From: Symbiodinium natans
Taxonomy: Eukaryota; Sar; Dinophyceae; Suessiales; Symbiodiniaceae
NCBI GenBank assembly: GCA_905221605.1
Contig: CAJNDS010002201.1
Coordinates: 347,522-411,521 of the forward strand
Length of the DNA stretch: 64,000 nt
Direction: 5' to 3'
The translations under genes were made by a program, and so were the position numbers. The notes beneath the pieces were generated by a model, which worked only from the letters and a program-made list of their open reading frames with translations, was not told the DNA's origin and ran no database searches. Shown here in pieces: positions 6,073-63,231 of this stretch. Positions within the stretch are counted from its first letter, which is position 1. Every line of letters begins with the position of its first letter.

Positions 6073-7064
6073 TCATATTACCGAAAAGCCTTCTAGGGCC
6101 CAAGCGTGCAGCAGTGTCTGCGAGGACTCGAGGATCTTCATGTAAGCGGCTTCGGTCTCCTTGCAGGAAATTCTGGCTACAGGGCCGCTGCCGAAGTCAA
6201 GAGCAGGTGCTCGTCATGAAGCTCGCAGCATCGCCTCCCCTTCCCTGCAACAGCTCTGGAGCTAGCGGGCATATCTTGAAGGCAACAATGCGAGGAAGGT
6301 GTCGGCCTGTCCTGGATGGTCTTGTCATACTCGTTTCGCGCTTGGGTCTTCCGCACCAGACTCTCGTTGATCTTCTGCAGGCGGTCCGTTAGGATGGAGA
6401 GCTCCTGGACAAGACCGCGTTGTGAGGAAAACCAGGATCTTCTGATTGTATGCCGCAAGCAAAGTTGCCACTTGACAGGTTGTCTTTGCCGTTGCACAAA
6501 GCAAACTGACTACCAAAGGCTAGCACATGTTATGAGTAGCACCCTCAGCTGCACGAGCAGAAGCCCGTCGTCCTTTTGGATCTTCGCCTTGTCCTGGCGC
6601 GCATTCGGCCGGATGAGCTTGCAGGCAGCATGGCATACAAAGGCTGCACACGGCCCTGAGTCATCCTGAGCCCTTCCAGACAATTACATCCCATGCCGCA
6701 AGCCTCCTCTTCCTTCAGGATCTGGCGGTTGAGCTCCTCTCGCTTTTCTCGGAGGTCCTGGTGAGCCGGATGGCTCATGATCACTATAGTTGCACTAATC
6801 TCATCGCGATCATAATGAGCTTCTGTGTACCTTTGACCATCGATGCTGAGCCCGAGGATGCTGCGAACGAGGTGCACCTGCCTCCACCTCCCTAAACCGA
6901 GCGCCCGCTAGAAACAAGAAAAATCCACTTCCTCAATCGACTTCACCAGCTCGTTGTTGTAGTTCTGAAGGGTGGCACCTGGTCAAGATTGGCGATCCGG
7001 GTGCAGTAGTAAAAACGCCATCCAGATCCAAACCCCTCCCCCAATCAGCGCCTTGAGAAGCCAT
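6073..7064 (-). CDS. SSNA1: SSNA1 / NA14 / DIP13-type microtubule protein, copy A (3' end altered)
   Basis: A small coiled-coil protein of basal bodies, centrosomes and axonemes that forms fibrils and promotes microtubule nucleation (family knowledge). Exons: 7064-7052, 6978-6929, 6757-6704, 6593-6570, 6404-6312, 6159-6073. The joined product is 106 residues (about 119 in human). Family hallmarks are MASQGATLQNYNNELVKS at the N-terminus, REKREELNRQI in the middle, INESLVRK, and TEAAYMKILESSQTLL near the end. Splice donors in order are GC, GT, GC, GA, GA, each with a phase-matched AG acceptor. Exons of 13 and 24 nt are microexons. Homology with copy B (14673-13500) stops exactly at the end of the last conserved codon block. 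Here the frame reads into a stop after GFSVI, whereas copy B has a GT donor and a further exon. This copy may be truncated, or may use a GC donor to an exon I did not find. Confidence 0.9.
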
Positions 7065-7305
7065 GATCACAAGCGCGGTGAGCGATGAGCAGTCAGGAGC
7101 AAGCACAGAATCGACGGTCAGCACTGCTTGAGCCGCAGTCGATCAACATCTCTCCCCTAAATGCGCCTGCCCTGGCACCCAGCCCGCGTTGCAGGAAACT
7201 TTTCTGGTGGGCCACTGTGCTCTCAAGACTTAAAAAACCTTCTCCTTGGGCTGGTTCTCCACGAGCTTGGCGTCAATCCATGAAAGCCTCGTATACCCCT
7301 TGCCA
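6088..7305. repeat. Segmental duplication block Z, copy A
   Basis: Aligns with 13669-14913 at high identity, including introns, and carries the SSNA1 copy. The left breakpoint coincides with the 3' edge of SSNA1 exon 6. On the right the similarity fades near 7305, just beyond the ACGAG motif shared with 14876. Intron identity shows the duplication is young enough not to be saturated. Confidence 0.9.
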
Positions 7306-8630
7306 CAATGCAGATGAAAATAATACTAATAGTAGTAAGAAGAACGATGACAATAACGAGAATCATGACGATCATGGGTACCTACTCATGCCATGTGCCT
7401 AAACCATGATCCTGCCAACCCAGGCTGGCTTTCAAAATCTCTCCTTATATGCGCCATCGCGTGTTGTGAATGGCCCTTGGGATCTAGATCGCGACCCCTA
7501 GGGGCATACATTTGCGCACGCAATACAATGTGCGAGCCATCCAAAGGTCCAAATGCGGGCTTTGGTAGAACAGTCATTTGTCATGTAGAACAATCGCGAC
7601 CCGCGCAATAACAAAAAGCATAGGCTGCGCTGCGGGGTTTCGAGAGGGTTACGGGCAGCGTTGCTTTTTGCACGATCTAAATCTAGACCTCAAGAGCCAC
7701 CCACAACACTCGGCTGAGAAAACACGACGTGCGAACGCGTCCTCATACAAACCGCGACCTACAACTCAAGATCACCCCATCCCTCAAATATCCCCCCCCC
7801 ACATAGATTACACACTGACCCCCCCGCACCCCTAATATTGAAACCCACCCTCGAAATTATCAATTCAAACACAACCCTGAGGGTTGGACCGGTCCCCCTG
7901 AGCCCTGCCAAAGCAAATCTAAACTTTCTCCGCCGTGTAGATTGTTGCAAACTCAAATCCCCAAGCGGGTGAATTAAGCTGGAACGCACAAGAAGGTGCT
8001 TAGCAAGTTTGACGCTTCTTATTGACGGCAGTTAAGGGTCTGCTTTCCCTGTAGATACTAGCTTCGCAGCTTCTGAACCGACCCTTTTTGCGCCACACAC
8101 GGGGAGTAGTGCGGGTAATTCCGTACGTGGTCAGTGTTAACTCGGCAAGGTGTTTCCGCACGTCGTGTCTGTAAAATTAATTTCAAAACAAGCATTTCAT
8201 GCGTAGTTTGTACCGTTCGAACAGCAACATTCCCAAGAATCCTATCCCAAGCCCAAAACCTCTTTTGCACCCAAACCTGTACACCAAGAAACCAAACAAG
8301 TTTGGTGTTAAGGGTTAGTGTTGAAGATTTCACCACCAAAAAGATCCAAGCCGGGCCGGCATGCCCCGAGCCCAAAGGCCCAAAAGCGAGAGAAAAGAAG
8401 CCCCAAGTATCTAAGGCTCAAGAAACCCACAACCAAAAATCCTAAACAGGCCCCAACACCAGCCCCAAGTGTCAAAAGCCCCACGTAAGAATTCAAAGCC
8501 CAGCCCATAAACTCAAGCCCAAGAGATGCGAGCCAATGCACAAAATCTCAATGTGCTTTGACTCCGAAATTGACCCTGAAATGGAGGGAGAGGGGCGAGG
8601 GGGAGCCACCCCTTCGCAACAGCCGGGGGC
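7306..8630. other. Intergenic, simple-sequence rich
   Basis: Contains an AAT/AAG-rich low-complexity stretch (about 7315-7375), C-rich runs near 7785-7835 and no open frame with family motifs on either strand. No gene seen. Confidence 0.5.
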
Positions 8631-9312
8631 AGCTGAATGAAGGAAAACACATTGGGGCACTTCGCAAGGCAAAACGGGAAGACCCGACTCCGCCTGCGCG
8701 CAAAGCGCAAGGCTCTGCCACTGGGCCGAAGATGCCGAAGATGCCGAAGATGGGGGACAAACGGTGCTTTGAGATGCCAAGTTGCGGATCATGATCCGGG
8801 AGATGCCAGACGTGGAAAGCTTGTGGCATGGGGTGGGCTAGATCAGGCTAGTGCTTCTCGGTGCTCCTGAGTGGCATGTAACAGTGACAAGCCTCTTGCC
8901 AGTTGCCCCACCTGAAAATCTTGCGGCATGCCGGAGGACTGCTGCAGTGCTGCCACAAGTAGATGTTTGCGGAAAAGTCAACCAGCAAGTGCAGCTCAAA
9001 CAGGAATGCACGATAATGCACGTCAGCTTCTTTCGTTGTGCAGGCGGCTCTGATTGGATGCCTGGAACCAATAGAAAACCTTGGACCGATAAGATCCGGA
9101 TTCGCCGCGCAAACTGCAGGATCTTGCATCTGCCGCACCTCTTTCCTACTAGTGTGATTTCTACAATTTCTCAAATTTTGCCAGTCCGAGCTCGGGACGT
9201 GGTCCGGGGCCAGGTAAAGCTCTGCGCCCGCTCGTTCGTGGAAGATCGTCTCCAGGATCCCAGGGTGCTCCTCTGCTCGAAGAGGCTTTTATCACCACAC
9301 CCTGTCTACCTC
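8631..9312. repeat. Segmental duplication block X, copy B
   Basis: Partner of 4019-4715. The GCCGAAGAT unit is repeated three times here. The block ends near 9312, shortly before the long C run. Confidence 0.85.
9187..9270 (-). CDS. Conserved exon of an unknown gene, copy B
   Basis: Same exon as 4663-4580, reading EHPGILETIFHERAG and then LYLAPDHVPSS. Both the length (84 nt) and the frame are kept. Substitutions relative to copy A are split evenly between silent and replacement changes. Function unknown. Confidence 0.4.
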
Positions 9313-9413
9313 TTCACGACTGGTCCCCTTCCACTTGCTGTTGGCCCAACCAAACAAGCCTGGAGAGAAACTCTCGCAGTCAGCACAAGCCAAGAATCTC
9401 AGTGAGACCGCCG

Positions 9414-9475
<62 letters not shown>
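9414..9475. repeat. Uninterrupted run of 62 C
   Basis: A homopolymer of about 62 cytosines on the plus strand, inside the enlarged second duplication copy. Its exact length may be affected by sequencing. The poly-Pro and poly-Gly frames across it are artefacts. The minus strand (poly-G) could form quadruplex structures. Confidence 0.9.
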
Positions 9476-9476
<1 letters not shown>

Positions 9477-10069
9477 CGGTCCCAAGAAAAATCATGGCCC
9501 GCGAGGAGGCCACCATCGCGAAGCAAAGGCGACCAGGCAGCCAAGTCACGACCTGTAGGGGGTTGGTTTCAAAAAGGGCACAAAGAAACCAGTGCCGTTT
9601 TGGGCAGGGTTCTGGTGTTGTGATTTTTGCTCTGGCCTTCTCATCCCCCCAAACTTGAGCTGTGCGGCAAGTAAGGTATGGTATTTGTTTTTTTAATCCC
9701 ACTGCAACACACCACTGTGTGCATGGACTGAGTGGCCACGCGGCGCCAGCAAACAAACGCCTGCCCGTTGAAAAACAAGAAATAACGCCTGCGTAGACAC
9801 GCGAAGGCCCAACCATTCTCAATTCATCCCAAGAGCTCCCAGATTATGCCGAGACCTTCCAAAGAGAGCGCCCTTTGCAACGCCGCGCGAAGTGAACGTA
9901 GTTATCCTGGAAGCTGTGCGCAAAAGCGCGATTTGGCGCCCTCCCCTCGCGATGCAAAGCCCAAAGCATGCTATTTGCGAGAGGTTTGAAGAACGTCGCA
10001 CCTGGGGAACAACGGTATTTTGATGTTGTGTGTTGCTCTTGTTTTGTTCCCTGCGAGTTGGTTGCTGGC

Positions 10070-10258
10070 TGCTTGCCTGCTTGCCTGCTTGCCTGCTTGC
10101 CTGCTTGGCTGCTTGGCTGCTTGGCTGCTTGGCTGCTTGGCTGCTTGGCTGCTTGGCTGCTTGGCTGCTTGGCTGCTTGGCTGCTTGGCTGCTTGGCTGC
10201 TTGGCTGCTTGGCTGCTTGGCTGCTTGGCTGCTTGGCTGCTTGGCTGCTTGGCTGCTG
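10070..10258. repeat. Octamer tandem array (TGCTTGGC)n
   Basis: About 23 copies of an 8-bp unit. The first few read TGCTTGCC and the rest TGCTTGGC. Because 8 is not a multiple of 3, all frames give the same Leu/Ala/Cys/Trp octapeptide pattern, which explains the repetitive open frames here. Confidence 0.9.
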
Positions 10259-10760
10259 ACTGCTAGCTGCTGGCCAACGCGATTGGGAAGGGAGCGTGCA
10301 AGGCTACCTTCGGCCACTTGCTGATCTCTCCACATTACCATCAGAACGTGACAGTTTGCCTGGAACGATGAAGCAAATTCAAGCCACAGGCGCAGCACAT
10401 GCAGAGATGCCACCGAGCCCCTGACGAATTCCGTGCGCAGTGTGGTCCCCATCCAGGAACCTGGCTCAATGCATGCGGCCCCTCATCCAACCTTACCAAA
10501 GCTGAAAGTCCAACCATTCGCTTCGCGTTTGGTTGTTTTTGCCTTCCATCTTGCTCTTTCTCTGGATATTTGCAGAAGCATGACCATTACGGTGTGCCTA
10601 GCGTTCGGCAAATACGACTGCGGACATGTATGGTAACATTGCGGGAAAAGTGCCGTTAAGGGGTAAGGTGTGTAACGGAAACCAAAGGGAATGTAACAGA
10701 AATTAAATGTAACGGAAATCACCCCAAGCCTGGAAACCAGACGCAGGTGTAACGGAAACC

Positions 10761-10872
10761 AACCCTAAAACCTAAACCAAAACCAACCCTAAACCCTAAA
10801 GCCTAGACCCTAAACCCTTTTCCAACCAGGTCTGCACAGACCCTAAACCCCAAACCCTTAAACCCTTAACCC
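10761..10872. repeat. Degenerate interstitial telomere-type repeats
   Basis: Imperfect CCCTAAA units interrupted by CCAAAACC and CCTAGA variants, bordered by copies of TGTAACGGAAA. Confidence 0.75.
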
Positions 10873-11652: not shown

Positions 11653-11748
11653 TTCCCAAAATAGGGGGTACCTTATTGGGGTCCTTATTGTAAGGGAATC
11701 CTATTATTTGGGGGTCTAGATTCGGGGTCCCTTCTTTTGCGTAAACTC
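11653..11748. repeat. GGTACC-family short repeat, copy 1
   Basis: Shares with 15181-15271, in the same order, GGGGGTACCTTATTGGGG, TATTTGGGGGTCTA and TTCGGGGTCCCTT. A related but inverted and rearranged copy lies at about 11890-11995 (GGACCCCCAAACGGGTACCC). Confidence 0.7.
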
Positions 11749-12177: not shown

Positions 12178-13325
12178 CTTTTTGGCGTCGCCGGAATTTG
12201 CGTTGGCACAGTGACAGTCAAGCATGAGCTTCATGCAAAGTGATACCAAGCCGATGGTGAAGGCTGCTTCTGCCAACGGAAGCAGGGCGCATAGAACTGG
12301 AGCACTGACAGAGTCATGTTCCCCCGCACGCCGCTTCAACGCTGGCAAACAGCATGATCAAGCGGTTGATTCTAGATGAAACGAAGACAGGCCAAGATGC
12401 AGAAAGCAACTCCTGCTCCATAAGCCTCAAGCATCTTCATCATGTCCCCCAAACCCTAAACCCTCGAGCCTAAACCCTAAACATCCCGAAACCCTAAACC
12501 ATCTTGCCCGTCGAAACAAGCATCCTTGATCAACTCGGCCCTGTGCATTTGGCATCCAAACTGGGTGAAACTAGCTGCTTCTATGTTTTGCGGTGGCCTG
12601 CGCTCAGAGAATGCCATGCCAGGCATGCAATGGGGACAAGCTCCTGTGCAATCTGAAGAGATAAGCCAAGAGAGCCAATGCTGCATCGAGCAGACCCAAG
12701 TAGCAGAAGAACGCACGAACAGCCCCCACACCCCCATGCAACAACCCATGGCATGCCAAGGCACCCCAGGCAGCTCAGCATGGTTCTGCTGAGACACCGC
12801 GCCGGTGGCGTTTAGTCCGAACCCGATTTCTTCTTCGTCAAGTTCACCTTGGGCTCGCAGCATGCAATGCCTACGTCACGCAATGACCACATGATCGCCC
12901 AGTCTTTGCCACGAAGAGCCCTGATTTTCGGCCTTCCAAAAAGGGGACGTACGGATTTTTCGTGGAAGGGACCCTTCCCAAGAGCCCCCCATTTACCATA
13001 ACAAACGTGCTACTAGCGCACCTCTTCAAACAGGTTAGGATTTACATTCCTTTCGGCTCTCACGTACTGGTGGAAGCTAGCGCCACGCTAGCGCCAACGT
13101 GGCGTTTTCGAGGATGTTGCTGGAGGAGGGGCGATTCATTGACTTAACTTCCGAAGCCGGGGTCGGGTCCCCTGTAACCTGTAATCCTGCAACAAGAAAT
13201 TGAGAGCACCCTCACCATCGAGCTCCCTGATCCATCTGCAACCTGGTCACAGTTTCGCGCTTGAGCACCTGGGACACGAATGCACGCGCAGCCAACTCTA
13301 AACCCAAGGGCTCCTTCCTGAGGAG
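12178..13325. repeat. Segmental duplication block Y, copy B
   Basis: Partner of 4990-5755, longer because of insertions that include a CCCTAAA tract at 12449-12499. Confidence 0.85.
12820..13318 (-). CDS. Exon fragments of an unknown gene, copy B
   Basis: Counterpart of 5755-5490. About 13318-13240 encodes LAARAFVSQVLKRETVTR in a frame entered from a good acceptor (CTCCTCAG). About 12860-12825 encodes KVNLTKKKSGSD and a stop. The stop is TAA here and TAG in copy A, at the same codon. The gene would follow SSNA1 on the minus strand. No family was recognised. Confidence 0.4.
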
Positions 13326-13499
13326 ACAAAAGTCAGAAGAGTCAGGAACGGGGCCGCACAGATGCAAGGAAAGCCATCCCCAAACCCTATAATGCCCTAT
13401 AAAACATCAGTGGCCATCAGTAGCCCTTGAGGCCCAGAGAACGCTGGAGCAAGTGGGAGTGCGTGCCACACACGTCAAGTTGCAGAGGTCTCTTCGCCC

Positions 13500-14673
13500 T
13501 CAAAACCAAAAGAGATCCCACTGAGTAGAAGCTTTGCCTAAGCTTCCTCGAAAAAACTCCCTAAACTCAGCATCCAGAAGCCCTTGATCCACAATGTCTT
13601 CCATCCCTGGGGCATGCTGCCAGCGCTTGAAACGTCCTCCTTGCGTCGAAGCTAGCAGGACCTTCTAAGGCCCAAGCGTGCAGCAGTGTCTGCGAGGATT
13701 CGAGGATCTTCATGTAAGCCGCTTCGGTCTCCTTGCAGGAAATTCTGGCTACAGCGGTGCTGCCGAAGTCAAGAGCAGTGCTCGTCATGCAGCTCGCAGC
13801 ATCGCCTACCCTTCCATGCAACAGCTCTGGAGCTAGTGGGCATATCTTGAAGGCAACAATGCGAGGAAGCTGTCCTGGATGGTCTTGTCATACTCGTTTC
13901 GCGCTTGGGTCTTCCGCACCAGACTCTCGTTGATCTTCTGCAGGCGGTCCGTTAGGATGGAGAGCTCCTGGACAAGACCGCGTTGTGAGGAAAACCAGGA
14001 TCTTCTGATTGTATGCCGCAAGCAAAGCTGCCATTTGACAGTTTGTCTTTGCCGTTGCACAAAGAAAGCTGACTACCAAAGGCTAGCACATGTTATGAGT
14101 AGCACCCTCAGCTGCACGAGCACAAGCCCGTCGTCCTTTTGGATCTTCGCCTTGTCCTGCACAGCTGGCGCGCGCGCATTCGGCCGAATGAGCTTGAAGG
14201 CAGCATGGCATACAAAGGCTGCACACGGCCCTGAGTCATCCCGAGCCCATCCAGAGAATTACACCCTATGCCGCAAGCCTCCTCTTCCTTGAGGATTTGG
14301 CGGTTGAGCTCCTCTCGCTTCTCTCGGAGGTCCTGGTGAGCCGGACTGCTCATGATGACTCGATGACTATAGTTGCACTGTTCTCATCACGATCAGAATG
14401 AGTTTCTGTTTGCCTTTTACCATCGATGCTGAGCCCGAGGATGCTGTGCCCGAGGTGCAGCAGTTGAAGCTTGCAACTCTTAGACTTAGGCTTCGGCCAC
14501 CTAAACCGAGCGCCCGCTAGAAACAAGAAAAGTCCACTTCCTCAATCGACTTCACCAGCTCGTTGTTGTAGTTCTGAAGGGTGGCACCTGGTCAAGATTG
14601 GCGATCCGGGTGCAGTAGTAAAAACGCCATCCAGATCCAAACCCCTCCCCCAATCAGCGCCTTGAGAAGCCAT
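13500..14673 (-). CDS. SSNA1: SSNA1 / NA14 / DIP13-type microtubule protein, copy B
   Basis: Second SSNA1 gene. Exons: 14673-14661, 14587-14538, 14332-14279, 14156-14133, 13967-13875, 13731-13662, and a proposed last exon 13606-13500. The sum is 411 nt, so 136 residues plus stop. The first six exons encode the same protein core as copy A. Donors are GC, GT, GC, GA, GA, GT. The last exon (GMEDIVDQGLLDAEFREF onward) is entered in phase 1 through CCCAG and ends at a TGA at 13502-13500. It has no counterpart in the human protein and is less certain than the rest. By family knowledge the protein is a ciliary or centriolar filament former. This copy looks intact. Confidence 0.92.
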
Positions 14674-14913
14674 GATCACAAGCGCGGTGAGCGATGAGCG
14701 GGAGCAAGCGCAGAATCGACGGTCAGCACTGCTTGAGCCGCAGTCGATCAACACCTCTCTCCTAAATGCCCCTAACGACACGAGCCCTGGCACCCAGCCC
14801 ACGTTGCAGGGAAACTTCTCTAAAACCGCTGTGCTCTCAAGACTTTCAAAGCCCCCTCCTTGGGCTGCTTCTCCACGAGGTAGGCGTGAAGCCAGGGAAG
14901 GCCTTGTATGCCA
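13669..14913. repeat. Segmental duplication block Z, copy B
   Basis: Partner of 6088-7305, containing SSNA1 copy B exons 1-6 and their introns. Confidence 0.9.
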
Positions 14914-16453: not shown

Positions 16454-18103
16454 CTACAGTCTGCAACAAGGTATTCCGCTGAACAAAACGGTGCCGCGCC
16501 AGCTCTGAGTTCGGCAATTAGGCAAGGCACGCTGCAAGTCGGCAAGACCATTGAACATTATCACACCAGGGAAATGGAAGTAGTCAGCTGACGCAGTCCA
16601 CTTGATGATCTTCTGCATTCCATTGCTGCTCAGATTGAACGGAGCTAAGCCATCATCACTAGCTCCAACTCTCAACCGTGTTCGCGGGATAGCGCGATCG
16701 AACCAGCCATCATACACTTCCTCTGTATCCAAGCTCGAAACGTGCAGCCAGATGTGGGCCAAGAAGTTTAGGCTTGGTGTAAAAAGCGGCAGCAGCATGG
16801 AATACAGGTCATTGAAATAGTTCTTGTACGGGTGTTCCGGGAAGTAAACCGCACAACAGTGACTCAGCACCGTCTCGACATGCTCTAGCTCATTAAAGCT
16901 CCAGAACGTATTATGAGTGTGCTCAAAAAACTCGAATGACGCCATTTGCCGCAGTACGGCCCTCATGGCGAGGTAGACGGCAGAGCTCTGCATTATGAAG
17001 CTGGATGCCAGAAGCACCCGGCGGCTCAGCTGCCACGGAATCTGCACGGCCCAATTCAGTAGCTGGGATCTAAAGAGCGTAATTGTAAGAACCTTGGAGG
17101 CCACCTTACCGATGTGATAGTCGAGCAGGGCCCAGGTCACCTCACTCGTGCAGAAGATAAGGTCCCCTTGTCCAGCTCTCCGTACAAGATCGAGCTGCAC
17201 CGCGCCGGACAAGCTTGCAGGAACGCCGTGGCAAGGGTTCATGCCAAGAAACTGCAGTCGCGGAATACTTGGCAAAAGGTTAAAGAGCATGTAGCAGAGA
17301 GGCACGTTATAGCAAACAATCATATCAGCACTTCCCTCCCTGCGAACTATATCATCGGCAATCTCATAGAGCTGCTCGAAGCTCACGTCTGGTTCGTGAA
17401 AATACTCGCACAGGCTATCAGCTCGGCTTGGCACATTTCGTTCCAAGCACCTGGGTGACTGCATGCAAAGGTAGCAGGCACCATAATACGCAAAGTCCAG
17501 AGGACCAATTCCCGCACTTCTGGCACTTTGCTCTACATGGTCAGAGAAAACGTCGGCCAACGGAGCATGGGCGCTGACTATGGCCACCCTCACAGCTGAA
17601 CCGGCCATTGTCGGCGCAACGTCCTCTTGCAAAGAAGAGCCACTGACAGGTGGAGCTGGAACAGATTCGCCCAGCTCCAGCGGCCCCACGCCTTTGACCA
17701 ACCATTTGTTCTGCCGAAGAACGCTCGCAAAGATGTGGTCCACCCCGAGCTGATCCGCACCCTGGCTTTCTTCGCGCTGCATCTCCAACAACGTCTGTGT
17801 CAACCAGCCCTTGACTTGCAGGCAATGTTGCGAAGAAAGCCCTATCTCTCCTGCACACCATTTGGGCACACACACGATGTGGTAGTCGGTGTCAGCTCCT
17901 TCATCCGCATCAGTCAGCAACTGCAGCCCTTCAAAGATGCTCTGCCCCGTCGCAGCGTAGCCGAACTGAAGCTTGACGAAGATAAACTCGCCGCCTCTGC
18001 TTTGGCAGTCCTCCCTCGAGTCCCTCGTGTCGATGATGTCTTGCCCAAGCGCCAACCCTGAACATCCGCTCAGTATGGCCCCGATGAAAAAGAGCAGCCA
18101 CAA
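16454..18103 (-). CDS. Unknown secreted or membrane-anchored protein, 549-codon exon
   Basis: The longest open frame in the window, on the minus strand, with even amino-acid use and many cysteines. It opens with a hydrophobic stretch (WLLFFIGAILSGCSG) typical of a signal peptide, but without an in-frame ATG. An upstream stop lies about nine codons earlier, so a short 5' exon carrying the start is expected, probably entered at TTTAAG. Residues about 1-150 form a Cys-containing N-terminal region. From about residue 170 (VRVAIVSAHAPLADVF) an alpha/beta-looking domain runs to the end, with FLGMNPCHGVPASLSG and FWSFNELEHVETVLSH as distinctive segments. The start resembles a Rossmann/GT-B strand, so a glycosyltransferase-like role is possible but unproven. 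The lack of introns over 1.65 kb contrasts with most genes here and may indicate a retrocopy. Confidence 0.7.
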   Translation of the reverse strand: MWLLFFIGAILSGCSGLALGQDIIDTRDSREDCQSRGGEFIFVKLQFGYAATGQSIFEGLQLLTDADEGADTDYHIVCVPKWCAGEIGLSSQHCLQVKGWLTQTLLEMQREESQGADQLGVDHIFASVLRQNKWLVKGVGPLELGESVPAPPVSGSSLQEDVAPTMAGSAVRVAIVSAHAPLADVFSDHVEQSARSAGIGPLDFAYYGACYLCMQSPRCLERNVPSRADSLCEYFHEPDVSFEQLYEIADDIVRREGSADMIVCYNVPLCYMLFNLLPSIPRLQFLGMNPCHGVPASLSGAVQLDLVRRAGQGDLIFCTSEVTWALLDYHIGKVASKVLTITLFRSQLLNWAVQIPWQLSRRVLLASSFIMQSSAVYLAMRAVLRQMASFEFFEHTHNTFWSFNELEHVETVLSHCCAVYFPEHPYKNYFNDLYSMLLPLFTPSLNFLAHIWLHVSSLDTEEVYDGWFDRAIPRTRLRVGASDDGLAPFNLSSNGMQKIIKWTASADYFHFPGVIMFNGLADLQRALPNCRTQSWRGTVLFSGIPCCRL

Positions 18104-18118
18104 GGAGAACCTTAAACT

Positions 18119-18700
18119 AAATCATTCTCCCTCTCTCTCTCTCTCTTGTTTCTTCTTCTGCTTCTTCTTATTCTTCTTCTGTTCATTATTATTCCTTTTT
18201 TATTATTCTTCTTCTGGTTCTTCTTCTTCTTCTTCTTCTGATTCTTCTGCTTCTTCCTATTCCTTTTCCTCTTCCTCTTCCTCTTCCTCTTCCTCTTCCT
18301 CTTCCTCTTCCTCTTCCTCTTCCTCTTCCTCTTCCTCTTCCAATATGTCAGAGTCTTCAGCCACTTACATTTCTCTGCCTCCCTATGCTCCTTCTGTCAC
18401 CTCTTCTTCTCCTTCTTCTTCTTCTTCTTCTTCTGCACTGCTCCCTCTTCTTCTTCTCCAGGGCATGGCGCGGGGAGTTTTGCTCTCCCTCCCTCTCTCT
18501 CTTTTCCTCTTCTGCTGGGCTTGAGGGAAAAGGTAACCCTCCCTCTCTCCCTCCTTCTCTCTCTTTCTCCTTTTCTTTTCTTCATTCCTTTATTTCTTTA
18601 TTTCTTTGTGTCCTTCTTTCATTTATTCATTCTTTCTTTCTTTCGTCCTGTTTTTCGTCCTTTCTTTCGTCCTTTCTTTCGAGGGCTGACGAGGGGCTTC
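18119..18700. repeat. Pyrimidine-rich microsatellite tract (TTC, TCCTCT, TTTC)
   Basis: Nearly 600 bp of C/T on the plus strand, made of (TTC)n, (TTCCTC)n at about 18255-18340, and (CTTT)n. It sits directly upstream of the 549-codon gene. Ser/Phe/Leu-rich frames across it are artefacts. Confidence 0.9.
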
Positions 18701-23155: not shown

Positions 23156-24576
23156 TCAGCTAGCCAGGCCACGTTGTCGTGGGACATGAGGGACATGGCC
23201 CGCAAGCAAGGCCACAGCTCTGTCAGGATAGTTCGTAATGATACCATCGACGCCCACTGCAACTGCTGCTTCCAGATCGTCGATCGCATCCACGGTCCAA
23301 GCAAACACCCGTCCCTGCACGACGTGAAGCTGTTGAGTTGCCTGTGCAGACAGCGAAGGATGTCTGACAGCCACGCCCGAGAATCCAAGACCAACATGCT
23401 GCAAGTCCTCCTTCTCCAGCAATCCTAGCCTAGAGCTCAAAGACAGGTACATAACTTGCAGGCTGGGCATCAGCCCACGCAACTCATGCAAATAAGGCTG
23501 GTGGAAAGACTGAGCCAGAATCCGGCCCTCCTCGACCTGATGTGAGTAGGGCAGCAAGACATCTGCAACCAAGCGTGCCAAGCCGGGATTGGATGGCTCC
23601 TGCTTCAGCATGCCCACTCGCCGCAGCGTTCTCTGAACCCAATCCGGAACCCCAGAGAAGCCACCCTTCAGTTCGATGAGAACTTTCTTGTCGCCACCCG
23701 GCCAGTTCATGACGAGGTCAAGAACCTGCACTCATGGTTTACAGGTGTCTGCTGAACACCGCGTCTCGTAGCACAACACAACGAAGCCGAAGCCACAAAT
23801 CCTCGCAAATCCAGTAAAATCCTGTTTTTTTCATTTTGCCCAGTCTGCTTCTGTCTGCCACGGCCTCACTCAAGAGAGGCACCCGCTCGCCCCGGAAGGC
23901 TGCGGAGTGCTTCGCGCCAGCATCCAGTCGCCGGATCTCGTCCAGAGACGCACGGCAAACTAAGCCCGTGCCGTTGGTAGTTCTGTCCTTTCGGGATGCA
24001 TCCAGAAAGAAGGGCAAGTCAATTGCACCTGAGGCACAAGGTACTTGCCATGTGTCCTGCGTGGCATCGTGGATCACCACCACATGCCCATCCAATGTAG
24101 GGTGAACATCCAGTTCAACTCCGTCTGCTCCAGCTGCCAGTCCTCCGAAATACTTGAGTAAAGTCGCGGGGTCGCCGGGGTCTAGCAGGCAAACCTTTCT
24201 CATATCTCATGTTTTGTACTTCGACGGCACCGCTTGAACAAAACCAAGTAGACAGGTTGGGCGGGGGAGAGCACCCCCTCACCTTTTTGAGCTGTTGATG
24301 TCTTACACACTTTTTGCCGCATATCCTGACCCGCCAAGCGAGGTCGCGCTTGCGACTCCTAGGAGCCTTCCCACTTAAGCTAATGAAAACTGCCAAGTGA
24401 CGACGGCTCCATGACACTGTCCTTGCCTTCACATGCCCTTTCGAATTGTTCTAGGTAACGCTGCCCTGAAATTGAGAATAGACGCCTTCTCGGAAGGCTG
24501 CCAAGGTATTTTCCGGGCACATCTTGGATGCACCGCGGTGCGCCCAAACAAGGGGCCGAGCGCGAGCCATTGCCAT
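23156..24576 (-). CDS. Glycerophosphodiester phosphodiesterase (GDPD)
   Basis: Predicted to hydrolyse glycerophosphodiesters to glycerol-3-phosphate and an alcohol. Exons: 24576-24486, 24142-23862, 23725-23156; 313 residues. Exon 1 holds the catalytic start AHRGASKMCPENTLAAF. Exon 2 supplies GADGVELDVH and VVVIHD (metal-binding Glu/Asp and catalytic His). Exon 3 has VLIELKGG (Glu/Lys of the barrel) and ends with FAWTVD and GVDGIITNYPD, the family C-terminus. All expected active-site residues are present. Intron 1 uses a GC donor in phase 1; with that choice the spacing between PENT and GADGVE matches bacterial GDPDs exactly. Intron 2 uses GT in phase 0. The start is placed at the ATG at 24576 (a second ATG is at 24570); there is no clear signal peptide, so it is probably cytosolic unless a further 5' exon exists. 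Confidence 0.92.
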
Positions 24577-28083: not shown

Positions 28084-30341
28084 CTAGGCAATGGCAAGGA
28101 GCATAACCACAGCGAAGCCAATCTGCTGCTGTGCGGAGATGTGGTCCCCAAACACGAAGGAAGAGGTTGCTACAATCACAGAGTCCTGTGGCAAAAATGG
28201 TGCAAGATGGCACGCAAAACCTAAACTGCGAGGCTTGCCGGATCTTGTGAGCTTGTCAGAACCGGGTCCTTCACAATTCCAATGATAACGAAGGCAACAG
28301 CGGAGAGCCGTTTCAGGGCCGTGGCGATGATCAGGTTGAGTGCCTGGTCAAGATCACAAAGCAGAGTCTCCAACAGGTCATCCTTTTGGCTTGGAGCCCT
28401 GAGTGCCATGCAAAAGCGTTGAGGGCATTCAGCATGATCCTGCATTGGTGGTCAGGCTTCAGTGCGGTCCGACCCCCCTTTGAACGCCTTTCTGCATGAC
28501 GCCCTAGCATTTGTTCGACAACGCTGTGCTGTCTCAACCCTGCAGCTTAGGCGCAACTGCCAGTGCGCCAGAAAGTTCGTCCACACTTCGGGCTCCCACG
28601 AGATCACGACACTGATCCTGGGAGCTGCTACCGGAGGAAAGACTTGGACGCATAAGTGTCATTCAACATTCCACTTGGCTCAGGCATGACCTCCGAACAG
28701 CAACCAAGAGACAGCAGGGGGACCAACGAGCATGGAGCCTGGAACATCACAAAAGTCAGCACATCCAGCCTTGGAGCAGGGCAGTAGCTGCACGAAGCAA
28801 TCCACATGGTGTGTCGGCTGCAGGCTTACTCCAAGCCAAACAGCTTCATGCCCGCCCCGGTCATCACCACCTCGCCGATGAGGTTCTTTGAGCACTCCGC
28901 AAACTGGGAGGTGATCTGGAGCATGAAGCCTGAGAGACCCCCTTGCCAGGCCCTCGAAACACGCCCCGTCTCTGAAAAATGAACCTAAAGCACATGGTCT
29001 GAAATGGATGTCTCCGGGTTATTGCTGGGCGGCCCATCCACACAAAGTTGATCTCGCCTCGGCTGATCCTATCTGCAGGTTCGGATCCAAGACCGGGGCT
29101 CATGAATAGCAACTTGCACTAAGCCAGGGCTCCATGAGCACACAGCGAACATCCGACTACGACGATGCTCAGCACTGCAACCTTCGTCCAGCTGAAGGCC
29201 TCCGAGGGGTATCGGTCTCGGCCTCTTTCTCTGTCTTAACCTTCACCCTCCACCCTCTCCCAAACTGGCCTGAAGGCCCAGCACGCAGGACATGGCAAAG
29301 ATCAGGGCCACATTGCCCTCCTTGCCTCGCTAGGCGCCCGAAAGCCGCAGCTGCAGAACAGGTTCGTGACAAAGCTGGGCATCACTACTTGGGGCTACAT
29401 TCCGTGCATTCTGCCCGTGTTCCTGCACGAGGCCGCTAGGTTTTCACTGTGTACCCTGGGGGGGCAAAGTGCTCTCTGACAGCAACTCTCCTTCACAGCA
29501 GCATGGCATGAAACAACGCTGCGCGAGAACATCCACGCGACCCATGCAGCTCGAGACAGCTCAGGCCCAGTGGCAGAACTGAAGGAAGGCAACCTGCAAA
29601 GATGCTTGGCTGAGGGAGCTCTGGGATGATACCCTTACTCGACACCTCTGACCGGCTTTCCCTGCCCTGTATCGGTCCACAACTGCCTAGACGGCCTAAA
29701 CATAAGACAAGGCCGAAGGTCTCAACCTGGCGGACTTTCTTGCAGCTTGGCAACGCTGGAGTAGAGGTAGGCGCGGTTGGAACAATACAAGGCCAGGGCA
29801 AACAACATTCCCAGTGGCACAATGTACTTCAACCTGTCAGCGAATCAACTTGCATAAGCTAGTTGTCGCTGGGGTCAGTCTGGCCAAGCTTAAGGCCCAG
29901 GCAGAACCTTCCAGTTCTCGCGGGCTTTTCCCATTGTTGGGTACAGGCTCGGCGAGGCAGTGTAGAGCAGCAGCGACATGACCATGGTCATCAGCATGTG
30001 CATTGCAGTCATCGCCTTTGGGTGGGGAAAGCGCTCAGCATTCCTTGGCTGCCGCATGATGTTCTCCCACATGTGCATGTGAAAGGATGCAAGAAAATGA
30101 AGACTCTTCCTGCACAGGTTCTCTTCTCTCCTAGGTGCAGCATGCGTACATGCACACAGCCGCTTCTGTTGCAGCCAAAGGTCATGAGGTATTTGTTAAA
30201 AGTGATCAGGCTGGCACTGATTAGTATGTAGCTGCCTCCGATGGCGCATGTTTCCGCAATCAGCTTGATTTCCTGCGTCAGCACATTGTAGCCACAGCTG
30301 TGAGTGGCTAACGACCCCAGCCGGTCCTTCATCCCAAGCAT
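28084..30341 (-). CDS. TPT/SLC35-type sugar-phosphate or nucleotide-sugar transporter
   Basis: A polytopic antiporter of the drug/metabolite superfamily; substrate not predictable. Exons: 30341-30184 (or a start spliced at 30272), 30043-29897, 29833-29755, 29593-29575, 29325-29270, 29199-29133, 29057-29034, 28929-28830, 28769-28713, 28617-28558, 28439-28412, 28343-28269, 28185-28084. The sum is 972 nt, 323 residues, in frame throughout. Hallmarks: ASLITFNKYLM, RFPHPKAMTAMHML, YIVPLGMLFALALYCSN, KEGNVALIFAMSC, QITSQFAECSKNLIGEV and KRLSAVAFVIIGIVKDSV. The last two are characteristic of TPT domains. Donors are a mix of GT, GC and GA. The exon 2 donor (GC at 29896, or a GA 17 bp earlier) and the exon 10 donor are ambiguous. 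The C-terminus ends MLLAIA at a TAG, slightly short for the family, so a further exon after a GC donor is possible. Confidence 0.92.
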
Positions 30342-50728: not shown

Positions 50729-50804
50729 CTGGTTCTTAGTAGAGAATGAGGGAATGAGGGATTATATAGGGTACCTCATTCCCTCATTCCCTACTAAGAA
50801 CCAG
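50729..50804. mobile_element. Short hairpin (MITE-like) element with 31-bp inverted arms
   Basis: Arms 50729-50759 and 50774-50804 are inverted copies over 31 bp with one mismatch, around a 14-bp AT-rich loop. The octamer GGCTTTTT occurs on both sides (50717-50724 and 50806-50813), which could be a target-site duplication. No coding capacity. Interpreted as a non-autonomous element; the family is unknown. Confidence 0.7.
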
Positions 50805-52062: not shown

Positions 52063-52084
52063 AGGGGTTCAAGAAGCTTGGCTT

Positions 52085-56660: not shown

Positions 56661-56858
56661 CGATCAAGCGGCGAGATCTGCGTTCGCATGGAACCGGATT
56701 TCCCGTGCCAGTGGGGTGTGCCACATACATGAGCCATCACGAAATCACAACAAGCAGCTGTGGTTCATGAACTCGCCTCCCGTCCAGGCCGGACTGCATC
56801 TGATTCCAGGAGCACAGGCTCACTGTGTGTTCCTGATTGCAATGTTTGACCATTCATC

Positions 56859-56963
56859 TTGGGATGTTCCCCCCCAAAACAACTAACCGTCCTTACTATG
56901 GATTATAGTACCCCGTACTATAATCCCTATGAAGGACTGTTAGCACAAGGGGGAACATCCCAA
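56859..56963. mobile_element. MITE-like element, 15-bp perfect terminal inverted repeats, 8-bp target duplication
   Basis: The element starts TTGGGATGTTCCCCC and ends GGGGGAACATCCCAA, a perfect 15-bp inverted repeat. It is flanked by the octamer CATTCATC (56851-56858 and 56964-56971). The interior is also nearly palindromic (GTCCTTACTATGGATTATAG against CTATAATCCCTATGAAGGAC). At 105 bp it cannot code for a transposase. An 8-bp duplication is typical of hAT-type mobilisation, but the superfamily is an inference. Confidence 0.85.
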
Positions 56964-57029
56964 CATTCATCAAAGAAGGAGGCTGAGGGCATGGCTGTTT
57001 TTGGAGACATCATAGACAGCATGTGAAGA

Positions 57030-57385: not shown

Positions 57386-57389
57386 CCAA

Positions 57390-59060: not shown

Positions 59061-59065
59061 GTGTA

Positions 59066-59104
59066 GTCACTGTGGAGTCACTGTGGAGTCACTGTGGAGT
59101 CACT
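59066..59104. repeat. Dodecamer repeat (GTCACTGTGGAG)n
   Basis: Three to four copies of a 12-bp unit just beyond the sulfotransferase stop codon. Confidence 0.85.
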
Positions 59105-59125
59105 TTCTGTTGCACCTAGCAGCAT

Positions 59126-60040
59126 CTAGGGGAGGTCCTCGTGAATATTGTAACCGAGCCTGCTGCGAAACTCTTCGTAGCGAGACTGCAAATCAGCCGG
59201 CATGGACCTGGTTGCCTTCCTGGCTTTTGACATGCACTCCTCACTGTTGGTGTGCCCAATAACGTCGGGAACGCGGCGCAGGTCTGCTTTCTTGGCCGCT
59301 TCGAGCACCCGACCGTGCTCCTCCTCGGTTATAAGACCTGCGAACCAGAAGTCTATCAGCTTCCTGGCTTCCTCATCGAAGTCCTTGGACGAGCGTGTAA
59401 ACTTTTCATAATCTATCCGGAAGGTGTCATTCTGGGGTTCAGCAAAGCTTGACATGTTGGCCACTTGTGGGAGCATCCTGTGTGCCATGAACGCCACACC
59501 GTCTTGTGCATCCATGCTAGGCACCACTCCCAGCGGCCAAGCTATCGGGTTGTACCACTCCTTCCATTCGTGGTGAAAGCAGTATGCCGAGGCGACCATC
59601 TCCAGAGGATCCCGCACGGGCACTACCACTTTCAGCACCCCTGGCCCGGCTGCCTCACGTTGCTGCTGAACAGTTTCAGCCGAGCACATGTCCACCTCAA
59701 TCCGCACAGGCGCCTCCGGATTGTAACAGACGCCCGGCCCACACGGACGGGTCATCAGCCCCAGGTCGTGTGTCTCGCCCCTCTCACCAAAAACACCCAG
59801 CTCGCCAAAGACGAACCAGACAAGCTTCTTGGTGAGGTCAACACCGGACTTGTGATGAGCACATGCAAGATACTGATGGACTTCCCATGGCTTCTGCCGC
59901 ACTTCGTGGCGGCGCCCTGTTCGGGTGGTTCGAGCTGTTCGGGCCACATGTGTGGCCTGCATCTGTACCATGAACACACCTGGCTCGACATCACCCAGCG
60001 CAGCTCCCAGCAGAGCCAACCATGGACGCCATCTCATCAT
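59126..60040 (-). CDS. Sulfotransferase-family protein, single exon
   Basis: A 304-residue open frame from an ATG (60040) with a signal-like hydrophobic N-terminus (WLALLGAALG). YLACAHHKSG is the 5'-phosphosulfate loop and VVPVRDPLEMVASAY the 3'-phosphate-binding motif (Arg-Asp-Pro and Ser) expected of PAPS-dependent sulfotransferases. A C-terminal helical region follows (FDEEARKLIDFWF, then VIGHTNSEE). Predicted to transfer sulfate from PAPS to a carbohydrate or other secretory-pathway substrate. Family membership is from motifs; the substrate is unknown. It lacks introns, unlike most neighbours, which suggests origin by retroposition or simply a single-exon gene. Confidence 0.8.
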   Translation of the reverse strand: MMRWRPWLALLGAALGDVEPGVFMVQMQATHVARTARTTRTGRRHEVRQKPWEVHQYLACAHHKSGVDLTKKLVWFVFGELGVFGERGETHDLGLMTRPCGPGVCYNPEAPVRIEVDMCSAETVQQQREAAGPGVLKVVVPVRDPLEMVASAYCFHHEWKEWYNPIAWPLGVVPSMDAQDGVAFMAHRMLPQVANMSSFAEPQNDTFRIDYEKFTRSSKDFDEEARKLIDFWFAGLITEEEHGRVLEAAKKADLRRVPDVIGHTNSEECMSKARKATRSMPADLQSRYEEFRSRLGYNIHEDLP

Positions 60041-60930
60041 GTCTTATCTCAGCATTGCTTCAGTGATTCAGCGTAATGGAGGGCCATACTCAGAGAGGGG
60101 TTTCTTCTGAGCCCAATATGTCTTTGGATGTCTCTGGCTTGCTCTGGCTTGAGGCTTGCAGGCATCCACGATTCCCCTCCTCTGACCCTCAATTCGCAGG
60201 AGCGTCCCCTACACGAGCAAGCTCCGGACATGTTGGGCCTCGGGGTGCCAGTACCAGCATCACGAGCAGTATGGCCTCGGCTTCCCGCGAATGCATCGAA
60301 TCACCAGGAAGCACTCAATCATGCGATCATATGCGATCCCTAGCGTCCGGCATGGTGCACGGCCCCAACGCCACGAACACCACGAACCCGCCTCAGACGC
60401 CCGATGGGTCGCCGCGCCCTTCAATGCCCCTACACTGAGCATCGCTGAGACTGACTAGGACCTCACTTGTCGCAGATCTCCATCCCCGCGAGAACCATTC
60501 ATCGGGCAATGCTCAGCTTAGAGTTACAAGAGCTTCTGCGCTTGCAGGTCCTATGCATCGCAAGGACCTGTCCCTGCAGTTCCCTGTTGTTGCGTGCTGC
60601 TGGAAGCTAGCTTCCAATCACAAAAGCACCCGTCTTGTGAACGAAATGGCTTCGATGTCAAAGGATTTCTCACAACAAGGCAAAAGCCAGTGCACTGAAT
60701 CATGCACATGGCGTCTTACATCTTCTTTCTCATCCGGTTGCTGGTCGCCTGCCCCACCGTGGGTTCCATGGCCAACGGATGCTCACACCGGTGTCTTGCT
60801 GGAGAGGTGAGGTGGTCTGCTTCTTGGCCCATCTTCAGGCGGCTTCGGGTCTTCTTGAACCTGCTGGGCGTCCAATGCTTTCAGCGCGCTGCAGACACGT
60901 CAAGCTGGTCGAGGATCGAAGCATCGGGCT
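60041..60930. other. No gene seen
   Basis: The gap between the sulfotransferase start and the oxygenase stop. Only short frames without motifs. Confidence 0.5.
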
Positions 60931-61993
60931 TTACTCGGAGCTGTCGGCAAAAACGACATCAGAGCGAAGAACATACTTGACGCCCTGGGTCACCGCAAGT
61001 GACTCATGCAGAAGGCATTCCTCAGGTTTGCGGCACCTACGAGGAGGCCTTGGAACCAGAATAACAAGGAGTGCTGATCTACTGGTGGGTAGTGACGATT
61101 CTAGCAGGGAGCATGGGGCATGGGCCTCGGAGCTTCGCCGTGGCACAAAAAAGGAAACAGCCGCCATGCAACTCTTAGCCAAGCTGCGGATCCATGCCGA
61201 TGAACCAGCGCCTGCCCTGCGACCGGCGCTACTCGTAGCACCTCCGCTCCACCAGCATAGAAGGCTGTCTCTCCACCCACTAGCTCGTGCTCCTCGCCGC
61301 TCAAGTAGATCAGCAGTGTGAACTCAGTTTTGCCCCTGGCCGTCTGATTGCTACCATCCACGTGCTTTCCAAACACGTCGCCGCCGGAGTACTTGTAGAT
61401 GCGAATGTTCTCATTGAGGCCTGGTCGGTGCTCACGTGCCTGTCTAAAGGCCAGCGCTGTCACATCTGCTGAAAAATGCTGAAAACGGCCTACTGGGCGA
61501 CGACTGCCCACACGCAACGCTGCCAGAGCTGTGTTCAGGCCTCGCACTGCAAGTTTACCAGGCTACCTCTCATCTTACACCACGCTGCATGACAACCGCT
61601 GCATGTACCAAAACGGCCAGGCCTGCATTCCAAAGCGCATCTGCAAACTGCGGGTCTTCAAATGAAACCCGGTAGTGATGCCTTGGACGTAAGGAGAGAC
61701 AACCGTCGAGCTGCCTTTTGCAGACCAAGACCATCCTTTGCTGGCGAAGCCTTTAAGGGGTGCTTCAGGGTGACGTGCATTTGTTTCATGACTGATACTT
61801 CTTGCATTTATCCGGGTTCATTTTGCCTCTTGTACTGCTTCTGAGGGTGCCTGTGAGCCTCGCCGAAGGCCGGGCCGCGGCTGGTCTGCAGCTCGAAGTT
61901 CGCCTCCTCCGATGCCTTGATTAGGACATGGGCTTCCTCCGCGTCGAGGACGCCCGGGACCAAAAAGATGTTGGGAATCCTCAACTTCTCCAC
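60931..61993 (-). CDS. 2-oxoglutarate/Fe(II) dioxygenase, prolyl-4-hydroxylase type
   Basis: Exons: from 61993 or a few codons later to 61851, then 61681-61615, 61439-61185 and 61020-60931; about 184 residues as drawn. The N-terminal part (IPNIFLVPGVLDAEEAHVLI, then SRGPAFGEAHR) is the usual lead-in, and VSFEDPQFADALW follows. GLNENIRIYKYSGGD precedes the iron ligands KHVDGS (His-X-Asp). Then come FTLLIYLS and GGETAFY, and CLLHES gives the distal His, followed by GVKYVLRSD (2-oxoglutarate-binding Lys/Arg region). Donors are GC, GT, GC, all in matching phase. There is no in-frame ATG at the 5' edge, and a stop lies just upstream of the GTG at 61993, so the first exon must be entered by splicing (for example AG at about 61983) and an upstream exon with the start is missing. 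Predicted to hydroxylate a protein or small substrate. Confidence 0.92.
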
Positions 61994-61999
61994 TCGCCG

Positions 62000-62340
62000 C
62001 AGTCACTTGCCTCTCGCATGTCTAGCAAAATGCACAGATGCACTCCTCGTCTCCTGGCTCTTCAACTCCTTCCGTCTCGGTGCTGCAGCCTCCGATCGCA
62101 AGCAAGACCGCAGGAGCACCAAGTCCAAGAGAGTTGAAGTTTGACCTCGAATCTGCGTCCCGGCTCTGGCGGTCGACCGCCCCAGCGCATGCGTCGGGCC
62201 TCTCGGATGCAAAGCCTAGACCACAACTTAAAGTTTTCAGATCCGAGATGCCTTCTCCTTGACACTCTGGCGAAAGACCCACCGCGAAGCAAGCAATCGC
62301 CGACGCATGGCAGGTCAGCTCGAGCCCTGTTTGCTAGGTG
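62000..62340. other. Between the oxygenase and carrier-protein genes
   Basis: A minus-strand frame at about 62150-62040 holds a hydrophobic stretch (LGLGAPAVLLAIGGC) that might be the signal-bearing 5' exon of the oxygenase. Unproven. Confidence 0.3.
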
Positions 62341-62359
62341 TTCATGACTCATGACCAAC

Positions 62360-63231
62360 CTGAACCGGCAACCGTTGTTGCCACATGACGAACCACTGCT
62401 TTGCAGCCACGTCTTTTTGCAACGCGGCAAAACGACGTGGCTCGATGTTCAGACCGCAGGCACGGAAGAGCTGTGTACGCAAGACTTCCTTCGTCTTCAC
62501 AGGCTGCCAGCTACGAACACTACCTACATTGCAACTACATGTGAAGCTCTCACATTTCCTAAACTCCGGCCAACTGGCTTTGCTCCACGATGTGTTCCGT
62601 GAGCTCACGCAACGTGGGAAAGTCAAAAAGTACTGTTGCCGTGTCTGTCATAAAGGGGAACGTGGAAGCGATGAGGTTCTGCAGGTCGATGGCCGACAAG
62701 CTGTCCAAACCAAGGTCCATGAGCGGACTCTCAGCATCAACGTGCCTTGGCTGTAAGCTGGACTTTGTGCTTTGCCCCTTGCACCCTCTCACGCCTACCA
62801 GCGCCGGAGTCTTAAATGCCTTCTCATCACTACAGCAGTCAGCGTTCGTCAGACGCACGCATACGGACGCGCAGGGTGACAAGCGGAGGTTGCTGCTTTC
62901 AAAATCAGCGGAGCGGCTGCTCGTCCGTCAGGACATTTTGAACATGCGACATCAGCTTACTTCTGACCATCTCGCGATCGACGCCCTGTGACCGAGCAAC
63001 TTTTCCCGCAGCGTCTGGCCTCACCAGCCACTTTTTTGTCTGGTTGATTGCGCATGCCTCCAACGTGTGCACCTTTTTTGGGATGCCGCCAGCACTCTCA
63101 GATGGCGCCAAACCATCAAGTTGCAAACAGTCACGGTCGTGCCTGAGTGAGCTTGTGTCGTACGCGGCTTCAGCCTCGTAGTAGTCCTCGTCATCAGCAC
63201 GGTCAATCCACAAACGCCACTGTTCCGCCAC
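62360..63231 (-). CDS. Protein with a polyketide/fatty-acid-type acyl carrier domain (partial)
   Basis: Exons: about 63231-62915, 62745-62565, and a probable 62503 to about 62360. The carrier domain is assembled across intron 1: MVRSKLMSHVQNVLTDEQ (helix 1) joins ESPLMDLGLDSLSAIDLQNL, whose GLDSL serine is the 4'-phosphopantetheine attachment site, and then FDFPTLRELTEHI. Intron 1 uses a GC donor (62914-62913) in phase 2 and restores the normal spacing of the domain. Intron 2 uses GT in phase 0. The region before the carrier domain is acidic (ADDEDYYEAEAAYD) and unrecognised. Neither the start nor the stop is certain, and ketosynthase or other catalytic domains were not found in the window. 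It could be one module end of a larger synthase or a discrete carrier protein. Confidence 0.8.

Follow-up and report, generated by a model that had tools for sequence, protein, structure and literature searches.

The window described here is a stretch of 64,000 nucleotides (nt), C1889:347522-411521 of its own genome assembly (759 Mb, 2,543 contigs), and judged by gene content and splice sites it is nuclear DNA of a dinoflagellate, which probably belongs to the group that includes the coral symbionts. The genes that we identified in it all lie on the minus strand, and GC content stays at 52-55% in 4-kb steps. Six genes supplied the introns for our counts: SSNA1, present as two tandem copies of which one was counted, a TPT-family transporter, GDPD, a 2OG-Fe(II) oxygenase (P4H-like), a lipoxygenase and an acyl-carrier domain (ACP). 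Our subject is the donor, the two letters with which an intron begins. At 28 junctions we found GC 18 times, GA seven times and GT three times. The odd second letter was probably inherited from the coding sequence in which the intron landed, an argument that rests on the resemblance between intron starts and the exons that follow them, and on GA introns, which stand almost always before exons that themselves begin with GA.

The original prediction, that half or more of these introns lack a GT start, understated the case: GC or GA opens 25 of 28. It was right that three donor types occur inside single genes. SSNA1 reads GC GA GC GA GA GC GT from intron 1 to intron 7, and TPT reads GA GC GT GC GC GA GC GC GT GC GC GA from intron 1 to intron 12. 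The earlier tally of about 15 GT, 13 GC and 6 GA (of about 34 introns) was not reproduced, GT accounting for 3 of 28, and an MFS gene that had been listed did not appear when Pfam was run on three minus-strand frames of 34-44 kb, which gave the lipoxygenase only. Every one of the 28 placements ends in AG followed by G. They were made by hand with AG in mind, so the AG/G pattern (a slash marks a splice boundary) is not independent evidence. Introns with AG/G at both ends are ambiguous in register from mRNA alone, and the names GC and GA therefore depend on reading the 3' end as AG by convention. The introns are listed below with their donors and with what supports each placement; L014, L019 and L062 are relatives of the window genes elsewhere in the genome.

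6979..7051, minus, SSNA1 copy A intron 1: GC (CAAG/GCGCTG), acceptor CAG/GT; gap-free against L014
6758..6931, minus, SSNA1 A intron 2: GA (GAG/GAAGTG); a GT 3 nt downstream rejected; matrix fit, aligner, L014
6594..6703, minus, SSNA1 A intron 3: GC; matrix fit, aligner, L014
6405..6572, minus, SSNA1 A intron 4: GA; matrix fit, aligner, L014
6160..6311, minus, SSNA1 A intron 5: GA; matrix fit, aligner, L014
5690..6105, minus, SSNA1 A intron 6: GC; L014 has GT at the same site
5515..5671, minus, SSNA1 A intron 7: GT; L014 uninterrupted there
14588..14660, minus, SSNA1 copy B intron 1: GC
14333..14540, minus, SSNA1 B intron 2: GA; aligner
14157..14278, minus, SSNA1 B intron 3: GC; aligner
13968..14135, minus, SSNA1 B intron 4: GA; aligner
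13732..13874, minus, SSNA1 B intron 5: GA; aligner
13269..13677, minus, SSNA1 B intron 6: GC; matrix fit
12848..13250, minus, SSNA1 B intron 7: GT
30044..30183, minus, TPT intron 1: GA; gap-free against L019
29834..29902, minus, TPT intron 2: GC; L019
29594..29754, minus, TPT intron 3: GT; L019
29326..29574, minus, TPT intron 4: GC; L019
29200..29269, minus, TPT intron 5: GC; L019
29058..29132, minus, TPT intron 6: GA, the sole GA donor before a non-GA exon; L019
28930..29033, minus, TPT intron 7: GC; aligner, L019
28770..28844, minus, TPT intron 8: GC; aligner, L019
28618..28712, minus, TPT intron 9: GT; L019
28440..28554, minus, TPT intron 10: GC; L019
28344..28411, minus, TPT intron 11: GC; L019
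28186..28268, minus, TPT intron 12: GA; just past the paralogue alignment, placed by hand
24143..24485, minus, GDPD intron 1: GC; aligner posterior 0.71
23988..24056, minus, GDPD intron 2: GA; aligner posterior 1.0
23726..23864, minus, GDPD intron 3: GC; aligner posterior 0.96
61682..61850, minus, oxygenase intron 1: GC; posterior 0.24, no junction gap against L062
61541..61622, minus, oxygenase intron 2: GC, with AGGCCTG directly repeated at its two ends; placed by hand, no gap against L062
61421..61489, minus, oxygenase intron 3: GC; placed by hand, no gap against L062
61021..61187, minus, oxygenase intron 4: GC; placed by hand, no gap against L062
43123..43377, minus, lipoxygenase intron: GC; low confidence, by reading only
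62746..62920, minus, ACP (PP-binding) intron: GC; low confidence, domain by Pfam and junction by reading, a second GC 6 nt downstream also fitting

The two SSNA1 copies, at 5479-7064 and 12812-14673, are 88.5% identical over their longest block. Both specify one identical protein of 111 residues, all 12 differences between the coding sequences being synonymous, and their seven donor dinucleotides are alike. The name comes from an 89-residue ungapped match to the SSNA1 chain of PDB 9dsm (E 7e-5), Pfam giving sub-threshold matches only. It rests as well on the human SSNA1 sequence. Introns 1-5 are 87-100% identical between the copies, and introns 6 and 7 only 45% and 64%, as if the latter two had been replaced in one copy. 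One relative is the paralogue L014 (C2427 of the same genome), to which nt 1-284 of the SSNA1 coding sequence align gap-free at 84% identity, spanning introns 1-5. L014 has an intron at position 282 of the coding sequence and none at 13, 60, 114, 135, 228 or 300. Another paralogue, L016 (C2122), is without SSNA1 introns 2-6 and is interrupted instead near 105, 168 and 238. No spliced-leader relict, the mark of retroposition, was seen in the loci of the intronless paralogues, which may thus be ancestral intronless genes.

For TPT the same service is done by L019 (C2013), a single open reading frame (ORF) to which the spliced protein aligns without a gap over 244 residues (155 identical), spanning introns 1-11; this comparison settled or corrected introns 2, 9 and 10. 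The oxygenase has a single-ORF relative, L062, which is 40% identical and shows no gap at the four junctions and one gap a few residues before intron 1. A search of the genome with GDPD returned the window gene alone.

Our final window placements were made by hand, from reading the sequence, and beside them stands an aligner for spliced matching of protein to DNA, written so that donors need not be GT. It was applied to five gene copies (SSNA1 twice, GDPD, the oxygenase and TPT), with reference proteins that were fetched for GDPD and the oxygenase and entered by hand for SSNA1 and TPT (three of the five copies). Summed over the five, the natural-log odds were 220.4 with GT donors only, 235.9 with GT and GC, 254.6 with GT and GA, 262.5 with GT, GC and GA, 261.9 with any GN, 249.4 with any donor paired with AG, and 227.1-232.9 for three triples lacking an initial G. 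The GT/GC/GA model thus leads GT-only by 42 nats and the non-G triples by about 30 to 35 nats. SSNA1 and GDPD account for this gain, with a slight contribution by TPT. Taken alone, the oxygenase shows no preference for GT/GC/GA (51.4 vs 52.4 for any donor), its junctions had low posteriors in the aligner (0.24-0.42), and hand placement matched the aligner at intron 1 only; an epimerase-like gene was uninformative on donors, scoring 14.6-14.9 under every model. Unsupervised fits were less steady. A dinucleotide fit drifted to the equivalent GG...NA register, and a position-matrix fit arrived at AG/G acceptors in one of four starts, the best one (329 vs 307, 300 and 283). The unsupervised fit also put the donor of SSNA1 intron 1 further upstream, a choice overridden by the start codon and by L014.

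With exons this short, Pfam on translated frames was a weak means of finding them; a codon-usage scan picked up mainly long ORFs and simple repeats. The spliced products of TPT (72.2 bits), GDPD (130.6) and the oxygenase (33.4) do pass the curated Pfam cut-offs. A hand-made TPT variant with moved junctions loses its match, and this variant is not a strict GT-only control. The spliced oxygenase has in addition a sub-threshold match to PF03336 (18.7 vs a cut-off of 25). One further segment of GDPD, 23531-23599, was scored as an intron (posterior 0.59) and yet is in-frame and stop-free; it could be an optional intron and was left out of the counts.

To look beyond the window we turned to five other loci of the same genome, found with E. 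coli carB, metH, clpB and gcvP, so that their choice owed nothing to the window. Two matches each were obtained with valS and gcvP of E. coli; valS was left out of the counts, as were MetH copy b (a near-identical tandem copy) and junctions below posterior 0.75. At this threshold, with GG allowed on equal terms, the donors number GC 44, GT 25, GA 14 and GG 0 of 83. All 83 are GT, GC or GA with AG, followed by G in 80, the model itself favouring AG and GN. When all 16 donors were equally allowed and AG assumed, 53 junctions reached posterior 0.75 and divided as GC 26, GT 19 and GA 8; summing the expectation over all posteriors under these flat donors gives about 39 of 115 donors that are not GT, GC or GA, and 2.8 exons starting GG. 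The tandem metH genes (C202:678500-704000, L058-L060) have an architecture of their own, the first half being present in duplicate inside a single open frame of about 1,440 amino acids and the second half being cut by at least 20 introns.

Could the donors simply be misplaced, with true donors at nearby GTs and protein spacing leading us astray? Several introns do have an in-frame GT 3-12 nt, that is a few codons, downstream (GDPD introns 2 and 3, SSNA1 intron 2, TPT intron 8), and the oxygenase, lipoxygenase and ACP introns were placed mostly by eye. The 42 nats lost under GT-only speak against this explanation, as do the absence of any gap against intronless paralogues over 284 nt of SSNA1 and 244 residues of TPT and the 53 of 53 confident junctions elsewhere that are GC, GT or GA without a donor prior. 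It is very improbable overall, and for introns 1-5 of SSNA1 and 1-11 of TPT these data refute it. The individual candidates fared no better. Downstream GT donors in SSNA1 and TPT are rejected by the intronless paralogues, a GT at TPT intron 10 is replaced by GC in the paralogue comparison, and a GT 12 nt downstream in GDPD intron 2 would insert four residues into HDATQ-DRTTNGTG. The earlier view that the unusual donors are in phase and not misreadings is borne out by the aligner's preference and the gap-free junctions.

What ties these donors to their surroundings is a resemblance between the start of each intron and the start of the exon that follows it. Permutation tests on two separate sets show that the likeness extends over about 4 nt and exceeds what chance would give. 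For this purpose the seven CPSase introns common to both paralogues were counted once, which reduces the other loci from 83 introns to 76. In the window the intron base equals the exon base at +2 in 17 of 28 (expected 10.1, p 0.0026), at +3 in 14 of 28 (7.2, p 0.005) and at +4 in 10 of 28 (6.6, p 0.09). The other loci give 37 of 76 at +2 (expected 24.9, p 0.0018), 28 of 76 at +3 (20.2, p 0.03) and 28 of 76 at +4 (17.5, p 0.003). There is no excess at +5 to +10 in either set.

GA donors are linked to GA exons. Among 102 of the 104 pooled introns (the other two, set aside, precede exons with a first base other than G), 19 of 20 GA donors precede an exon starting GA, vs 16 of 82 GT or GC donors (p 3.3e-10), and it holds in each set (13 of 13 in the other loci, p 1.1e-8; 6 of 7 in the window, p 0.013). 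Before an exon starting GT or GC, a GA donor occurs in one of 67 introns. An exon starting GG follows an intron in 0 of 28 cases in the window and 0 of 76 in the other loci; for comparison, within the coding part of one CPSase gene the base after a G is another G in 278 of 906 cases, and after AGG in 6 of 56.

Sites with and without an intron can be read in the two CPSase genes (C2123 and C2424), whose spliced sequences are 95.1% identical. Six introns (posterior >0.75) occur in only one of the two, and at four of the six the uninterrupted copy carries the donor dinucleotide (GT, GA, GC, GA). In three of them four bases are repeated exactly: CAGCCGCA/GTGG...AAAG/GTGG stands against uninterrupted CAGCCGCAGTGG (GT), CATCGA/GAAC...CCGAG/GAAC against CATTGAGAAC (GA), and GGGGCT/GCAC...TATAAG/GCAC against TGGCCTGCAC (GC). 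In the fourth, CCGCAA/GAGC...GTAAG/GAAG against CCGCAAGAAG (GA), two of the four bases differ. An intron common to both genes has the donor GTATCATG in one of them and GCATCATG in its partner, the exon being GTATCATG in both, which suggests later drift of the donor base. Presence in one copy and absence in another is thus seen for CPSase and, in the window, for SSNA1 against L014 and L016; absence may reflect gain in the other copy, and loss also fits.

We propose, from sequence comparison, that a short DNA element, perhaps a DNA transposon of the introner kind, would insert before a G in coding sequence and duplicate about 4 nt of its target (GNNN). The AG acceptor would be supplied by the element's own 3' end, and the upstream copy of the target would become the start of the intron, its donor being G plus whichever base followed that G in the gene. 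Targets with GT, GC or GA would give spliceable introns. GG is not seen, presumably because splicing excludes it and not because insertion avoids it. The second base would then drift, T and C interchanging and A being lost to C or T and hardly ever regained; a change of A to G would yield a GG donor, which would leave A only the slower routes out.

A number of observations weigh against this proposal. T and C donors keep no memory of the exon base (p 0.4), and the +2 match is not significantly higher where +3 and +4 both match (11 of 18 vs 43 of 86, p 0.28). GA introns look no younger than the rest, matching at +3 and +4 in 7 and 5 of 20, vs 35 and 33 of 84. Pair-specific terminal inverted repeats (TIRs) do not rise above shuffled ends; the consensus intron ends do mirror each other, with CTYGG after the repeat and CCRAG at the end. 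Most matches among the 111 introns that we compared are short and spaced by 7 nt, and no introner family emerges; there are a few longer matches, among them 59 nt at 78%, 73-99 nt at 71-78% and 41 nt at 88%. Of the two remaining CPSase-specific introns, the fifth has donor GC and exon GT where the other gene has GG/GT, and the sixth lies at the end of the sequence, where no full empty site can be read. Since an intron lost precisely would leave behind an identical uninterrupted site, gain is preferred, not proven.

Two other explanations take the donors as real. The spliceosome may read the second base loosely, GC and GA being products of ordinary mutation in introns that once had GT, unconnected with intron birth. 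The memoryless T and C donors fit this well, as do the shared CPSase intron that differs as GT vs GC between paralogues and the occurrence of GT, GC and GA across Symbiodiniaceae. Loose reading does not predict, however, that 19 of 20 GA donors stand before GA exons, nor the 4-nt resemblance, and we hold it unlikely. Alternatively, there could be a functional coupling between GA donors and exons starting GA, if identical bases at both ends were required for the splice reaction or its register, so that only such GA introns are spliced. The GA link is indeed nearly absolute though +3 and +4 match in so few of the 20 GA introns, and junctions with repeated ends are ambiguous in register. Yet GC and GT introns need no such match, and TPT intron 6, checked against its paralogue, is a GA donor before a GC exon; functional coupling seems to us quite improbable. 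Inheritance from the insertion target is what we favour. Whether GC and GA are so abundant as a side effect of how introns are born and not of a looser code, with GA surviving almost only at GA targets and GG targets never having yielded an intron, we would call evenly poised.

Unusual donors are familiar in dinoflagellates, as had been supposed, and the literature on Symbiodiniaceae agrees. Their density in the window, thought at the outset to be exceptional, is not: according to a review (PMC11453091, in the part concerned), GC or GA with AG makes up 25-74% of Symbiodiniaceae introns. A table in PMC7789003, its columns assigned by exon and intron numbers, gives GT 26% and GC or GA 73.95% for S. 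microadriaticum, 48.23% and 51.77% for S. minutum, and 65.38 and 25.30 for S. kawagutii. Passages of PMC4083563 describe GC and GA donors with AG then G in S. minutum, and in PMC5177918 GC, GT and GA are the predominant donors in a column that we take as S. microadriaticum. Such a density is usual for Symbiodinium, so the observation is known and the window is a typical sample of an oddity already described, correctly spotted and undercounted. Compared with the GC-AG and GA-AG introns of S. minutum, S. microadriaticum and F. kawagutii we see the same GT/GC/GA donors and AG/G acceptor and no difference in donor usage; a link between donor and exon base is absent from the passages compared. The introns of the window would be spliceosomal, in a nuclear genome like that of Symbiodinium, with a 5' splice site made up of G and then T, C or A.

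What we would add to known donor usage is a likely cause of the donor spectrum, with evidence from paralogues. Its closest precedent is the introners of S. microadriaticum, which have 4-bp target-site duplications (TSDs) and a 5' splice site co-opted from the TSD (Gozashti et al. 2022, PMC9860276, Fig. 2B). As described there, duplication, carried 3' splice site and co-opted 5' splice site are all as in our proposal, and a TSD is what the 4-nt resemblance in two sets and the exact 4-nt repeats at three paralogue-specific CPSase introns look like. Those introners, in contrast, are multi-copy sequence families with TIRs, whereas our signal comes from introns of conserved genes with neither a family nor pair-specific TIRs above shuffled ends. 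The same paper, in the part concerned, finds canonical splice-site use better explained by species than by the presence of TSDs or TIRs. In Amoebophrya, introns carry direct and inverted repeats (Farhat et al. 2021, PMC7789003). The introner elements described in that paper are alike in having 3-5 nt direct repeats at intron ends and many non-GT introns, and differ in that the two introner strains tabulated have few GC or GA donors (0.45% and 2.95%) and mostly other boundaries, whereas our confident junctions show only G[TCA]...AG. Elsewhere, passages of PMC4201569 report gained introns with MWG/gy and sag/GY boundaries in Symbiodinium PCP genes, and PMC10666404 reports introner elements in P. 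cordatum. The GA rule itself is stated in no title or abstract opening found in our full-text literature searches, which did not cover Roy et al. 2023 on dinoflagellate introners.

If the proposal is true, the birth of an intron could be read from its second donor base, and the proportion of GA in a genome would be a gauge of how recent its gains are. Should the rule hold genome-wide, insertion targets would determine the donor spectrum, and the spliceosome would act on it as a filter that lets GT, GC and GA pass and not GG; gene finders would gain a constraint, a GA exon being expected after a GA donor, and close paralogues would become experiments in intron gain and loss.

The window holds other features besides. 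Two long single-exon ORFs, 16454-18121 (555 amino acids) and 59126-60043 (305 amino acids), share the strand of the intron-rich genes; Pfam at E 0.01 gave no match for the second. A pair of hairpins at 50729-50804 and 56856-56966 is possibly related to miniature inverted-repeat transposable elements; one has 31-nt arms that are 97% complementary with 14 nt between them, and the other has 29-nt arms (86% complementary, 3 nt between) inside 18-nt arms (94% complementary). Telomere-like tandem repeats of the CCCTAAA type lie inside the contig at 3189-3231, 10761-10818 and 21797-21913. At 9414-9475 there is a run of 62 C, and at 10058-10257 a 25-copy array of TTGGCTGC.

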